10,956 nucleotides of DNA, taken from an uncultured Ruminococcus sp. (GTDB taxonomy: Bacteria > Bacillota > Clostridia > Oscillospirales > Ruminococcaceae). The notes beneath the pieces were generated by a model that saw nothing but the letters and a program-made list of their open reading frames with translations, searched no databases and was not told the DNA's origin. Shown in pieces: positions 5,982-10,852 of this stretch (position 1 is its first letter; every line of letters starts with the position of its first letter). The stretch is from assembly GCA_947177715.1 (NCBI GenBank), contig CAMWVM010000032.1, positions 1-10,956 on the forward strand. Direction: 5' to 3'. The position numbers and the translations under genes are program-made.

Positions 5982-6686
5982 ATGGAAGAAAACTCATACA
6001 TTTTAGTTGTTGATGATGATAAAGATATCGTAGGGGCTATTGCAAAGCTGCTGGAACTTGAAGGTTACAGCGTTATAAAGGCTTATGACGGGATGGACGC
6101 CCTTGATAAGCTTGCCACCAACAACAGTATAAGTCTTATTCTCATTGACATTATGATGCCAAAGCTTGACGGACTTTCTGCAATGATGAAAATTCGTGCC
6201 ACAAGAAATATTCCTATCATTGTTCTGTCTGCAAAGTCGGAAGATACAGACAAGGTGCTTGGACTTTCAATGGGTGCAGACGATTATATTACAAAACCAT
6301 ATAACCCTATTGAGCTTGTAGCAAGAGTCAAATCAAATTTAAGAAGATATCTTCAGCTCGGTTCAGCAGACACAACAAAATCCGATGTAATTAAAATAGG
6401 AGGGCTTGCTCTTGATACCTCTGCCAAAACGCTGGAGGTTGACGGCGAGCCTGTAAAGCTAACGGCAACCGAACTTAAAATTCTTGAACTTCTTATGAGA
6501 AATGCAGGACGTGTTTTTTCATCTGAGGAAATCTATTCAAAGGTATGGAACGAAGACGCTTTCTCAGTTGAAAATACAGTTATGGTTCACATTAGACATA
6601 TAAGAGAAAAGATTGAAATTAATCCGAAAGAACCTAAATATCTAAAGGTGGTGTGGGGAATTGGATACAAAATTGAAAAGTGTTGA
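5982..6686 (+). CDS. OmpR/PhoB-family response regulator (VanR-like)
   Basis: This 234-residue regulator has an N-terminal receiver domain (about 5-122) and a C-terminal winged-helix DNA-binding domain (about 137-232). The receiver shows the acidic pocket D11-D12-D13, phosphoacceptor D56 in I-D-I-M-M-P, S83 (the conserved Ser/Thr switch position) and K105 in K-P. The effector domain has the L-T-A-T-E-L-K-I-L-E-L-L recognition region and ends in V-W-G-I-G-Y-K, typical of the family. It overlaps the sensor kinase gene by 26 nt, so the two form a translationally linked pair. The downstream D,D-carboxypeptidase makes a VanR-like cell-wall role plausible. It is preceded by a consensus promoter and a leader hairpin; autoregulation is a reasonable inference. 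The start has AGAGAGG eleven bases upstream, and a nearer ATG at 5975 is out of frame. Confidence 0.93.
   Translation: MEENSYILVVDDDKDIVGAIAKLLELEGYSVIKAYDGMDALDKLATNNSISLILIDIMMPKLDGLSAMMKIRATRNIPIIVLSAKSEDTDKVLGLSMGADDYITKPYNPIELVARVKSNLRRYLQLGSADTTKSDVIKIGGLALDTSAKTLEVDGEPVKLTATELKILELLMRNAGRVFSSEEIYSKVWNEDAFSVENTVMVHIRHIREKIEINPKEPKYLKVVWGIGYKIEKC
6645..6652 (+). promoter_or_regulatory. RBS supporting the TTG start of the sensor kinase
   Basis: AAAGGTGG lies inside the 3' end of the response-regulator gene, eight bases before the TTG at 6661. No in-frame ATG occurs before residue 50, which is beyond TM1, so the TTG start is needed to include the basic N-terminus and the first membrane helix. 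Confidence 0.6.
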
Positions 6687-9114
6687 TAAAGTAAATAAAC
6701 CCAAAAGAATAAAAAATTTTTTACTGAACAGAAAAGTAAGAACTGTTGTCTGTGGAATTGTTTGTGTGCTTACAGCAATAATATATCTTCTCGGCATAAG
6801 ATTTGCAAATATGAAAAACACTTACCCTTACACCAGTGAGGGATTATATCTTCACGATTATATGGACAGCTATGAATTCTCTATTAAAAAGTTGTCTTTT
6901 TATGAAGCTATGTGCATAACCTCATCTTTTTATTTGAGAAACACCGACAATAATTATAACTTCAAATTAAGCGATTCCACTTTTCTTAACTATACTCAAG
7001 AAATGAAGAACAACTACAAGCTTGATGTAAAGTACAATAAAAATGGAAAGTGCGAAATTGACAGTGACTTTTGGGACTTTTTTGTTGCCTTTGATGACAA
7101 ATATTTAACTAATATTGAAAACCTAAATGTTAATAAAGAAACAGATATCAAGGAATTAGTATATGATTTAATGGATCAATATGACAATTACTGCATCAGA
7201 ACTCAAAATAATATTCTGACAGATCTGCCTTCTTCAGATTACAGTTATTATGTTAGGTTAAATTTTACAGATATTTTTCAACGGTATGGTTATTATTTTG
7301 AAAACTCTGATGGTTCAGAATTTCCGGTTGGTGCGTCAGGCTTTGATAATCTGGGAAGGTTTATTTTTCAATACTATGGCTATAATGATGTAGAATTTTA
7401 TGATAGTACAAAAAAAGATAAAAAATTCAGTTATATTTCCGATTATAATGTTTTACACAACATAGATGATAGATTATACAGTTACGACGAATTTGAAAGA
7501 GATGCATATGGTAGTGATGAAGATTACTATATTGATGATCTTGACGGATATGAATTCACCATTTATGACGATAATCCAATATCAATCTTTTTTGCTCCCA
7601 AGCCTGAACAAACCGAAAAACTCAATGCTACTTTTAAAGGCATTGAAGACGACTATAAGCATGTTATATTAAGCCTGATCTCCTGCTGCATAATCCTTTG
7701 TATATTATGTGTTTATCTTGCTGTAGTCTGCGGTTACAATGCTTGTGAGAAGAAAAAATGGGGATATTCTGTTTTGTTTGGGAAGTGGTATTCTGAAGTT
7801 CAGATAATTTGCCTGATCTTAATGATATTATCAACCACTTTTCTTTTAGGAAGCCCGGAATTCAGTAGATTTATAAAATATTTTATAACCTCAGATACTA
7901 AATATATAGAATTTATATCCTGCATTGCTTTCAGCATATGCTTCAGCTTATGTGCAGGACTGGCAATGGGGCTTATTTCTAAATTCAAGTCCAAAACATT
8001 CATTCAGGACAGCCTTTGCCTGCGGATTGCCAAAAAGCTAACAGCATTTATCAAAAGACATATCATCAATACTAAACTTTTTGTACTGTTTAACAAAAAG
8101 ACAATAGGACAAAAGCTATATACAATCACATGGATTTTCATAGCAGTTACTGTTGTAATGATAATATTATTCTTTATGTCCTTGTCGGCATATGGTACCA
8201 TATTGCCCGCTTTTTACGGAATACTTTGTCTTATCTATTTTATTTATTCAATTTGGTTCTTGATTACTCTTTTCAAAGGCTTCAGTGATATTAACACTCT
8301 TTGCAGTCAGATAGAACAGCTGAGCAATGATGAGGATATAACAGATGAAATAAGCGAATACTCTATTATATACGAAGATTCAAAACGATTAATGAGTATT
8401 TCTGAAAATGTAAAGGAAAACGTTGAAAAACAGGTTCAATCTGAAAGAATGAAAATTGAACTTGTAACTAATGTATCTCATGATTTAAAAACTCCTTTGA
8501 CGTCCATAATAAGCTATATTGATCTGCTCAAAAAGGAGGATTTATCTGATGCGGCAAGAGATTATGTAAACATACTCGATATTAAATCTCAAAAACTGAA
8601 AAACATTGTATCAGATGTATTTTCACTTGCTAAAGCTACAAGCGGAATTGATGTAGAGCTTGAAGAAATTGATGGAGTAATTCTGTTAAAACAAGTTTTA
8701 GGTGATAATGAGGATAAAATAACAAACAGCGGCAAAAATTTAAAAACAGAAATCCTTTGCGACTCAGCAGTAATTAAGGCTGACGGAAACAAGATTTACA
8801 GAGTTTTTCAGAATCTCATTGACAACGCTCTTAATTATTCAATGGATGGCACAAGGATTTTCCTCAAGCTTGATCGAGATGAAACCAGCATGATTCTCAC
8901 CGTTAAAAACACAGCAAGCTATGAAATGAATTTTTCTCCTGAAGAAATCACAGAACGTTTTGCCAGAGGAGATAAATCCAGAACTGACGGAGGAAGCGGT
9001 TTAGGATTATCCATTGCAAAAAGCTTTACAGAAGCCTGCGGAGGAACGTTCAAAATAGAGCTTGACGGTGATGTTTTCAAGGCAATATTAAAAATGCCGT
9101 TAAATAACAAATAA
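6661..9114 (+). CDS. Six-TM sensor histidine kinase with large extracytoplasmic domain
   Basis: This 817-residue kinase is the partner of the regulator it overlaps. TM1 is at about 27-46. An extracytoplasmic domain of nearly 290 residues (47-334), rich in Asp, Glu and Tyr, follows, then TM segments near 335-358, 381-397, 417-440, 487-508 and 514-537, which leaves the kinase core in the cytoplasm. A helical linker (about 540-598) leads to the HisKA domain with H607 in S-H-D-L-K-T-P, then a HATPase domain with the N box at N718-N722 and the G2 box G778-S-G-L-G-L783. The usual DxGxG G1 box is not recognisable; V-K-N-T-A (748-752) lies there. The TTG start has AAAGGTGG at 6645-6652, eight bases upstream. 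The sensor region resembles nothing I can name. A cell-wall or envelope signal is inferred from the carboxypeptidase encoded next. Confidence 0.9.
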   Translation: MDTKLKSVDKVNKPKRIKNFLLNRKVRTVVCGIVCVLTAIIYLLGIRFANMKNTYPYTSEGLYLHDYMDSYEFSIKKLSFYEAMCITSSFYLRNTDNNYNFKLSDSTFLNYTQEMKNNYKLDVKYNKNGKCEIDSDFWDFFVAFDDKYLTNIENLNVNKETDIKELVYDLMDQYDNYCIRTQNNILTDLPSSDYSYYVRLNFTDIFQRYGYYFENSDGSEFPVGASGFDNLGRFIFQYYGYNDVEFYDSTKKDKKFSYISDYNVLHNIDDRLYSYDEFERDAYGSDEDYYIDDLDGYEFTIYDDNPISIFFAPKPEQTEKLNATFKGIEDDYKHVILSLISCCIILCILCVYLAVVCGYNACEKKKWGYSVLFGKWYSEVQIICLILMILSTTFLLGSPEFSRFIKYFITSDTKYIEFISCIAFSICFSLCAGLAMGLISKFKSKTFIQDSLCLRIAKKLTAFIKRHIINTKLFVLFNKKTIGQKLYTITWIFIAVTVVMIILFFMSLSAYGTILPAFYGILCLIYFIYSIWFLITLFKGFSDINTLCSQIEQLSNDEDITDEISEYSIIYEDSKRLMSISENVKENVEKQVQSERMKIELVTNVSHDLKTPLTSIISYIDLLKKEDLSDAARDYVNILDIKSQKLKNIVSDVFSLAKATSGIDVELEEIDGVILLKQVLGDNEDKITNSGKNLKTEILCDSAVIKADGNKIYRVFQNLIDNALNYSMDGTRIFLKLDRDETSMILTVKNTASYEMNFSPEEITERFARGDKSRTDGGSGLGLSIAKSFTEACGGTFKIELDGDVFKAILKMPLNNK

Positions 9115-9145: not shown

Positions 9146-9883
9146 ATGAAAAAAGCAACAAAGAAAGATAAAATTCTGATTACTATTGCAGTGATTGGTA
9201 TTATGGTAACTATGACTTTATGTTTATTTCATATAAAGCCAGACTGGAAGTATATGCTTAGTTCAATAGTTACTGCTTCATTCCACAGTTCTGATGTAAG
9301 CTTGTCAGATACCGATGAACTGCAAACCATGTCATACAAAATCTTAGCAGAAAAAGATATTGAAAATATAAGCGAAGATCAAAGTCTTATGCTTGTAAAC
9401 AAAAACAACACTATTCCTGCAAACTTCACTGCAGATCTTACGGATTATAACGAAGACGGATTAAAAATGAACAGCTGTATGACAAAGGCGTTTAAAAGTC
9501 TTTCAGATGACGTTTTTAACAAGTTTGGTGAAAACTTATATATTATGTCAGGATACAGAACCGCTGAAGAACAGTTGGAGCTATATAATAATCAGGGAGG
9601 TTCAACTGCCGAAATACCGGGAGCAAGCGAACATCAAACCGGGTTAGCTTTAGACGTTTATGTAAATAATTATGCCGGTTATGGCTTTTTAAAAAGCGAG
9701 ACAGGGCAATATGTAAACTCAGAATGCTGGAAATACGGATTTATAATCAGATATCCCATGTTAAAAAGCGATATCACGGGCATAGATTTTGAGCCATGGC
9801 ATATTCGTTATGTAGGCATTCCTCATGCTGAAATAATTTACAAAAAGGGAATTACTCTTGAAGAATACGCTGTATATGCTTAG
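9146..9883 (+). CDS. VanY-like D,D-carboxypeptidase, copy 1 (C-terminally truncated by tandem duplication)
   Basis: This 245-residue protein has a single N-terminal membrane anchor (about 9-29) and a peptidase M15B (VanY, PF02557) domain. The zinc and catalytic residues are all visible: S161-x-H163-x-x-G166-x-x-x-D170, E216-P-W-H219 followed by R221-Y, and the substrate-binding S135-G-Y-R138. VanY-type enzymes remove the terminal D-Ala from peptidoglycan precursors or mature stems outside the membrane. The gene lies 31 nt after the sensor kinase, so the two-component system probably controls it. At 9873 the sequence re-enters a second exact copy of 9251-9872 in a shifted frame. The protein therefore ends E-Y-A-V-Y-A and loses the ancestral 49-residue tail. 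The active site is intact, so this copy could still work. The RBS is weak (AAGAGAG at 9132-9138). Confidence 0.87.
   Translation: MKKATKKDKILITIAVIGIMVTMTLCLFHIKPDWKYMLSSIVTASFHSSDVSLSDTDELQTMSYKILAEKDIENISEDQSLMLVNKNNTIPANFTADLTDYNEDGLKMNSCMTKAFKSLSDDVFNKFGENLYIMSGYRTAEEQLELYNNQGGSTAEIPGASEHQTGLALDVYVNNYAGYGFLKSETGQYVNSECWKYGFIIRYPMLKSDITGIDFEPWHIRYVGIPHAEIIYKKGITLEEYAVYA
9251..9872 (+). repeat. Tandem duplication unit 1 (622 bp)
   Basis: Compared base by base by eye, this segment is identical to 9873-10494 along its whole length. It begins in the codons just after the membrane anchor of the vanY-like gene and ends in the codon after E-Y-A. A single G (9250/9872/10494) is shared at the boundaries, so the breakpoint has only one base of microhomology. 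Confidence 0.95.
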
Positions 9884-10494
9884 TTCAATAGTTACTGCTT
9901 CATTCCACAGTTCTGATGTAAGCTTGTCAGATACCGATGAACTGCAAACCATGTCATACAAAATCTTAGCAGAAAAAGATATTGAAAATATAAGCGAAGA
10001 TCAAAGTCTTATGCTTGTAAACAAAAACAACACTATTCCTGCAAACTTCACTGCAGATCTTACGGATTATAACGAAGACGGATTAAAAATGAACAGCTGT
10101 ATGACAAAGGCGTTTAAAAGTCTTTCAGATGACGTTTTTAACAAGTTTGGTGAAAACTTATATATTATGTCAGGATACAGAACCGCTGAAGAACAGTTGG
10201 AGCTATATAATAATCAGGGAGGTTCAACTGCCGAAATACCGGGAGCAAGCGAACATCAAACCGGGTTAGCTTTAGACGTTTATGTAAATAATTATGCCGG
10301 TTATGGCTTTTTAAAAAGCGAGACAGGGCAATATGTAAACTCAGAATGCTGGAAATACGGATTTATAATCAGATATCCCATGTTAAAAAGCGATATCACG
10401 GGCATAGATTTTGAGCCATGGCATATTCGTTATGTAGGCATTCCTCATGCTGAAATAATTTACAAAAAGGGAATTACTCTTGAAGAATACGCTG
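9873..10494 (+). repeat. Tandem duplication unit 2 (622 bp)
   Basis: This is the second exact copy, in direct orientation and with no spacer. The unit length is 3n+1, so reading through the junction shifts frame and stops at the TAG at 9881-9883. No target-site duplication, terminal inverted repeat or transposase accompanies it, so it is not an insertion sequence. Confidence 0.95.
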
Positions 10495-10643
10495 ACTTAT
10501 ATGAAGAGGGTAAATTTTACGAATATGGTGACTACATTATTTCTCGTCAGACCGATACCGATTTGACGCTTCCAAAAGGTTTTAAAAGCTGTAATATATC
10601 TGCGGACAATACTGGAAATTATTATGTAACTGCTCACAAATAA
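9876..10643 (+). CDS. VanY-like carboxypeptidase, copy 2 (lacks membrane anchor; likely broken duplicate)
   Basis: This 255-codon frame repeats residues 37-242 of copy 1 exactly, including every zinc and catalytic motif, and then continues into the original C-terminal tail of 49 residues (from D-L-Y-E-E-G to V-T-A-H-K). It lacks the 36 N-terminal residues with the membrane anchor, so it has no evident way to leave the cytoplasm. The ATG at 9876 overlaps the end of copy 1 by 8 nt, which would allow translational coupling. An alternative TTG at 9858 lies seven bases after AAAGGGA and would add six residues. Removing one 622-bp unit rebuilds a single 291-residue gene (9146-9872 joined to 10495-10643), which is probably the ancestral form. 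It may be a non-functional remnant or an assembly artefact. Confidence 0.7.
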   Translation: MLSSIVTASFHSSDVSLSDTDELQTMSYKILAEKDIENISEDQSLMLVNKNNTIPANFTADLTDYNEDGLKMNSCMTKAFKSLSDDVFNKFGENLYIMSGYRTAEEQLELYNNQGGSTAEIPGASEHQTGLALDVYVNNYAGYGFLKSETGQYVNSECWKYGFIIRYPMLKSDITGIDFEPWHIRYVGIPHAEIIYKKGITLEEYADLYEEGKFYEYGDYIISRQTDTDLTLPKGFKSCNISADNTGNYYVTAHK

Positions 10644-10648
10644 AATGG

Positions 10649-10685
10649 CTACAGAAGATAAATTTATCTTCTGTAGACTTTTTTT
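10649..10685 (+). terminator. Intrinsic terminator of the two-component/vanY operon
   Basis: A perfect 12-bp stem (10649-10660 with 10665-10676) closes an AATT loop and is followed, two bases later, by seven T residues (10679-10685). It lies five bases after the last stop codon. Confidence 0.92.
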
Positions 10686-10763: not shown

Positions 10764-10852
10764 GGACAGGTGTCCGAGTGGTTTAAGGAGCCGGTCTTGA
10801 AAACCGGTGATACGGCAACGTACCGTGGGTTCGAATCCCACCCTGTCCGCCA
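10764..10852 (+). tRNA. tRNA-Ser (anticodon UGA)
   Basis: The acceptor arm GGACAGG (10764-10770) pairs with CCTGTCC (10842-10848), followed by discriminator G and an encoded CCA. The anticodon stem CCGGT/ACCGG (10791-10795, 10803-10807) closes a 7-nt loop with TGA at 10798-10800, reading UCA and related Ser codons. A long variable arm with stem TACG/CGTA (10811-10814, 10819-10822) marks a class II tRNA, and the T arm GTGGG-TTCGAAT-CCCAC is standard. All stems are intact, so it should be functional. Confidence 0.97.

Follow-up and report, generated by a model that had tools for sequence, protein, structure and literature searches.

The window, which is the whole 10,956-bp stretch of DNA analyzed here and also one whole contig (C32) of its assembly, carries a VanY-like carboxypeptidase gene that is cut into two open frames by an exact tandem duplication, and this raises the question of whether the duplication belongs to the cell or to the sequence record. 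When the window is compared with itself at an offset of 622 bases, positions 9250 to 9872 are identical to positions 9872 to 10494 (623 matched bases, 0 mismatches), and no other stretch of more than 15 identical bases occurs at that offset. The unit consists of 622 bases plus one base (G) of joint homology, and 622 has the form 3n+1. The initial annotation had described identical adjacent copies at 9250-10494 with a 1-base microhomology and a 3n+1 unit, and both the coordinates and the description are borne out by this comparison. The size and exactness of the 622-base repeat rule out an origin by chance. TRF reported no tandem repeat in the window; the longest TRF period, 500, is below the 622-bp unit. 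A repeat search of the window found neither an inverted repeat nor sizeable homology at the unit ends. A mobile element bounding the unit is rejected on the lack of an inverted repeat at these ends, as the earlier remark on missing mobile-element hallmarks had it.

Both open frames contain the VanY domain (PF02557), with 87.8 and 87.6 bits against a gathering score of 25 and with positions 3 to 131 of the 132-position profile covered. The hydrophobic segment of the 5′ ORF is N-terminal, and its final three residues are encoded by the joint. The 3′ frame overlaps the 5′ ORF and has an ATG at 9876, from which a protein of 255 aa would be read. S161, H163, G166, D170, E216, W218, H219, and R221 are invariant in 53 of 53 aligned sequences, the 245-aa product included; the motifs SxHxxGxAxD and ExxWHxR are presumably the metal and catalytic residues of M15B D,D-/L,D-carboxypeptidases. 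The ORFs and the Pfam matches agree with the anatomy proposed initially, namely, an anchored, catalytically complete copy without the tail and an anchor-less copy with it. Among the matches listed, the nearest full-length relatives are 86 to 88% identical, and the eleven nearest (P0002-P0012) are 288 to 296 aa long, which supports the proposed ancestral enzyme of about 291 residues; in the nearest relatives, the gene is one frame of 290 to 291 residues. Of the 161 distinct proteins that two protein searches listed, 159 carry the tail; P0013 (211 aa) and the product of the window itself lack it. In the structural model of P0002, the conserved tail (residues 243 to 291) forms five strands, and VanXY-G (4f78) aligns with P0002 through this part as well. 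The frame is cut immediately after the catalytic domain, close to where the alignment ends for most solved M15B enzymes.

The VanY-like gene sits 3′ of genes for a response regulator and a sensor histidine kinase, and a vancomycin-resistance operon was considered for this arrangement. The 245-aa ORF scored below the NCBIfam cut-offs of vanY_AFMPt (120.7 against 425), vanXY (109.7 against 250), vanY_BG (108.1 against 400), and vanXY_G (74.0 against 500), and the LdcB/DacB L,D-carboxypeptidase model was also not reached (71.7 against 275). Because these scores are far under the cut-offs, the enzyme is a relative rather than a member of the vanY and vanXY resistance families, which sets it apart from the M15B enzymes VanXY-G and VanY-B (PDB 4f78, 5zhf, 6a6a, and 5hnm). 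The best vanR model for the regulator, vanR_ACDEGLN, gave 260.6 against a cut-off of 350, and VanS gave 153.3 against 400 for the kinase. With enzyme, regulator, and kinase all well under the NCBIfam cut-offs, a vancomycin-resistance operon is unsupported. By its predicted features, the gene encodes an ordinary anchored M15B carboxypeptidase adjoining a two-component system. In three congeners (L002, L003, and L004), a histidine kinase is followed by one uninterrupted VanY-like frame, and a kinase adjoins the VanY-like gene in 3 of the 25 relatives' loci that were scanned. The pair may form a module for cell-wall sensing that belongs to none of the named van families.

The source assembly (G000) comprises 1,736,549 bp in 277 contigs, with 80.45% completeness and 2.56% contamination, and these figures, together with its relatives, suggest that the draft genome is metagenome assembled. 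Exact adjacent repeats were searched for in 81 of the 277 contigs (C1-C61 and C101-C120, with only the first 20 kb of C1-C4), which make up 841,781 bp, or 48% of the assembly. Eight exact head-to-tail duplications with units of at least 20 bp were found (109, 203, 221, 253, 302, 393, 622, and 827 bp), all of them two-copy and none with units of 20 to 108 bp (Table 1). All eight are exact across unit and joint; the BLAST alignment of the 109-bp pair continues for a few bases beyond the joint, which lowers its identity to 98.3%. Three contigs hold two duplications each, and a simulation gave a P of 0.003 for eight events on five contigs or fewer. Applied to 66 control stretches, which total 807,866 bp when N is discounted and come from the congeners G001, G003, G005, G008, and G009 and from six relatives' loci (L021-L026), the same script found no duplication with units of at least 20 bp and only two arrays of 18-bp units; this control set is similar in size, not larger, and possibly from other pipelines. 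Eight events in 841,781 bp against none in 807,866 bp correspond to a binomial P of 0.0046. The 19 further short relatives' loci (L002-L020) contain no exact tandem repeat of at least 60 bp except a run of N in L012. The count excludes a homopolymer of 36 C that opens C30 and that the script listed under small offsets. Two of the 81 contigs start with runs of C (36 C at L057:1-36 and 29 C at L062:1-29), which we take to be probable signs of untrimmed, poorly cleaned short-read data.

Table 1. Features of the VanY-like locus in the window (C32) and exact tandem duplications on other contigs of the same assembly
Feature	Coordinates	Strand	Remarks
OmpR-type response regulator	5982..6686	+	Response_reg + Trans_reg_C; below NCBIfam vanR cut-offs
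Sensor histidine kinase	6661..9114	+	Below NCBIfam vanS cut-off
5′ ORF, 245 aa	9146..9883	+	Hydrophobic anchor and VanY/M15B domain, without conserved C-terminal tail
Copy 1 of exact 622-bp tandem unit	9250..9871	+	Identical to 9872-10493
3′ open frame, 268 codons stop to stop	9837..10643	+	VanY domain and tail, no anchor
Copy 2 of exact 622-bp tandem unit	9872..10493	+	Identical to 9250-9871
C-terminal tail coding part	10494..10640	+	Single copy, conserved among relatives
203-bp unit, C6	L033:10707-11112		WapI-like immunity gene (PF24716)
109-bp unit, C8	L035:5378-5595		Exact head-to-tail
221-bp unit, C8	L035:12839-13280		Exact head-to-tail
827-bp unit, C31	L058:5842-7495		Exact head-to-tail
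253-bp unit, C31	L058:8957-9462		Exact head-to-tail
393-bp unit, C105	L132:1786-2571		Exact head-to-tail
302-bp unit, C105	L132:3247-3850		Exact head-to-tail

Diverged repeats occur in both sets. Self-BLAST of the genome's own contigs gave, for example, tandem-like arrays of 74 to 75% identity (L040 and L166) and pairs of 97.4% identity separated by 17 bases (L039) and of 98.9% identity separated by 108 bases (L166). Examples from the controls are a pair of 97.1% identity with 5 bases between its members (L095) and an adjacent pair of 77.6% (L123). These look like ordinary old repeats, and it is the exact adjacent class that distinguishes this genome from the controls.

Seven of the eight duplications lie within genes, six of the eight cause a frameshift, and the eighth breaks no gene clearly. 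On C6, the two pieces of the PF24716 gene score 42.4 bits, over the cut-off of 27, and 22.1 bits, under it. The genes cut on C8 encode a class-II fructose-bisphosphate aldolase, with profile positions 1 to 193 in one frame and 160 to 277 in the following one, and also a YitT/DUF2179 membrane protein, which is cut near its end. On C31, genes for an AlwI-like restriction endonuclease and a D12 adenine methyltransferase are cut; the downstream piece of the endonuclease matches PF09491, and the upstream piece has no Pfam match, with 276 of 276 residues common to both. On C105, an M18 aminopeptidase contains an in-frame repeat of 131 residues, and the second unit starts in the final part of the M18 gene and extends past it, into sequence whose pieces lack any Pfam match. 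Apart from the two aldolase pieces, no PF01116 match was found in the genome. Among 15 congeners, 13 have one full-length PF01116 match and two have none (G011 and G014, 86% and 90% complete), in which the enzyme may be dispensable or unassembled. The aldolase class of PF01791 had no match in this genome, with the control matched in 13 of 14 genomes; the PF00274 search matched zero control genomes and is hence uninformative.

Taken together, the 622-bp duplication is very probably a product of the sequencing library or the assembly and not of the cell, and the organism most likely carries a response regulator, a histidine kinase, and one uninterrupted VanY-like gene at this locus. The initial annotation had left the choice between an extremely recent duplication and an assembly error. 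The second option gains support because there are seven other exact tandem duplications in the sampled 48%, which lie on few contigs and mostly cut genes without regard to frame, housekeeping ones included, and the first, with the switch attached to it, is left unsupported. A real and very recent tandem duplication by illegitimate recombination in the sampled strain is quite unlikely. Under that explanation, the tail-less anchored enzyme would probably still cut peptidoglycan stems, beside an untranslated or cytoplasmic remnant, and the duplication would not be stable, with recombination between the copies removing it again in most cases. The exactness of the copies and the 1-bp joint are consistent with a young spontaneous event, the position of the cut means that copy 1 could work, and the six matches in the genome, two of which are the copies, suggest that a loss would be tolerable. 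Against it, the duplication would be one of about ten per Mb, all young and all at consensus level, another of the eight breaks the only class-II aldolase gene found, and the control stretches have no counterpart. Some ten fresh exact duplications per Mb, together with the cut in that aldolase gene, make it hard to believe that they represent the consensus of a population; at 80% completeness, a second aldolase could be missing from the assembly, and this, together with the two congeners that lack a PF01116 match, tempers the argument for an artefact.

A further point against an artefact comes from protein clustering. The cluster led by a protein identical to the 245-aa product has two members on two contigs, the longest of which is 10,978 bp, so that there is probably another record with this form or one much like it. 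That contig is 22 bp longer than the window, and the near-equal lengths suggest that the same reads were assembled or deposited twice, with an independent sample also possible. The kinase cluster (P0162) has two members on one contig of 10,956 bp, so that the second contig of the 245-aa cluster may be slightly different or have its genes called differently.

The initial annotation had also proposed that gain or loss of one 622-bp unit could switch the C-terminal tail on and off reversibly. Phase-varying duplications inside pneumococcal capsule reading frames provide a precedent (as cited in PMC4022640), as set out below. No positive evidence for such a switch was found here: a near-identical intact sister allele is absent from the 120 best matches of each of the two protein searches, the tail is present in nearly all of the distinct proteins listed, and the unit ends have none of the repeats or homology noted above. 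Phase variation of the tail is scarcely credible on this evidence, and neither a singular event nor a reversible switch is a supported reading of the locus. It is very unlikely that tandem duplications with short joint homology are now arising in a burst across the genome of this lineage and serve it as a source of reversible gene inactivation. If that were true, units of more than 100 bp would arise at about ten per Mb, with the anchor and tail arrangement of a wall carboxypeptidase among the targets, and, in what is seemingly one restriction-modification locus, the D12 methyltransferase would be hit as well as the AlwI-like endonuclease near it.

If the duplications arose in the library or the assembly, two routes can be envisaged. 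Two pieces with an unrecognized overlap may have been laid end to end, or a chimeric (for example, self-circularized) fragment may have introduced a false end-to-start edge into the assembly graph, which would then have been walked twice. Homology at the eight joints is 1, 4, 1, 1, 1, 0, 2, and 3 bases. Since the joints share only 0 to 4 bases, shared k-mers alone are insufficient, and loops from such k-mers are rejected as the sole cause. Compared with random joints drawn outside the interiors of the duplications, homology is above chance (seven of eight joints with at least 1 bp, P of 0.024; sum of 13 against 6.1, P of 0.033). This slight excess, which a real duplication would also accommodate, points weakly to joints that formed in molecules, whether in the cell or the tube, and away from a blind end-to-end joining of pieces. 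The survey shows that the assembly is odd, without by itself pinpointing the responsible step.

False second copies have been described in vertebrate assemblies, where they are reported to look like segmental duplications of recent origin and to distort the models of genes (Kelley and Salzberg 2010, PMC2864568; PMC9516828), including one gene falsely copied next to itself (PMC9516828). The vertebrate cases, as presented there, arise when divergent diploid haplotypes are built twice, whereas the present copies are exact, in a haploid metagenome bin, with a mechanism that we infer. Spurious cycles are common in metagenome assembly graphs according to the DomCycle report (PMC9104695), and a cycle of this kind walked twice would give a two-copy tandem repeat. 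However, the phantom cycles in that report come from repeat elements, and with joints that share 0 to 4 bp, the false edge would have to come from chimeric reads or from a blind join. In the pneumococcal cap8E/tts and type 3 capsule genes, a tandem duplication in the frame inactivates the gene and is reported to be capable of subsequent loss (Waite et al. 2001, 2003, as cited in PMC4022640). There, in a cultured organism, switching was observed, whereas the eight duplications here are spread across a draft genome and known from its sequence. Among the papers listed in the literature search, none treats exact tandem false duplication in metagenome bins; such papers may exist.

The biological weight of the duplication is small, and its value lies in the caution that it adds for fragmented metagenome-assembled genomes, in which exact tandem duplications can mimic striking recent gene events. 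Tallying like structures across an assembly, with congeners as the control, exposes false duplications even when no reads are at hand. Falsely split genes for the aldolase, the methyltransferase, and the VanY-like carboxypeptidase would enter any gene catalogue that draws on this genome. At the VanY-like locus itself, an imperfect 23-nt palindrome lies within each copy (9673-9708 and 10295-10330), a 21-bp stem-loop (10642-10683) lies 3′ of the gene, and a tRNA-Ser gene (anticodon TGA) is located at 10764-10852.
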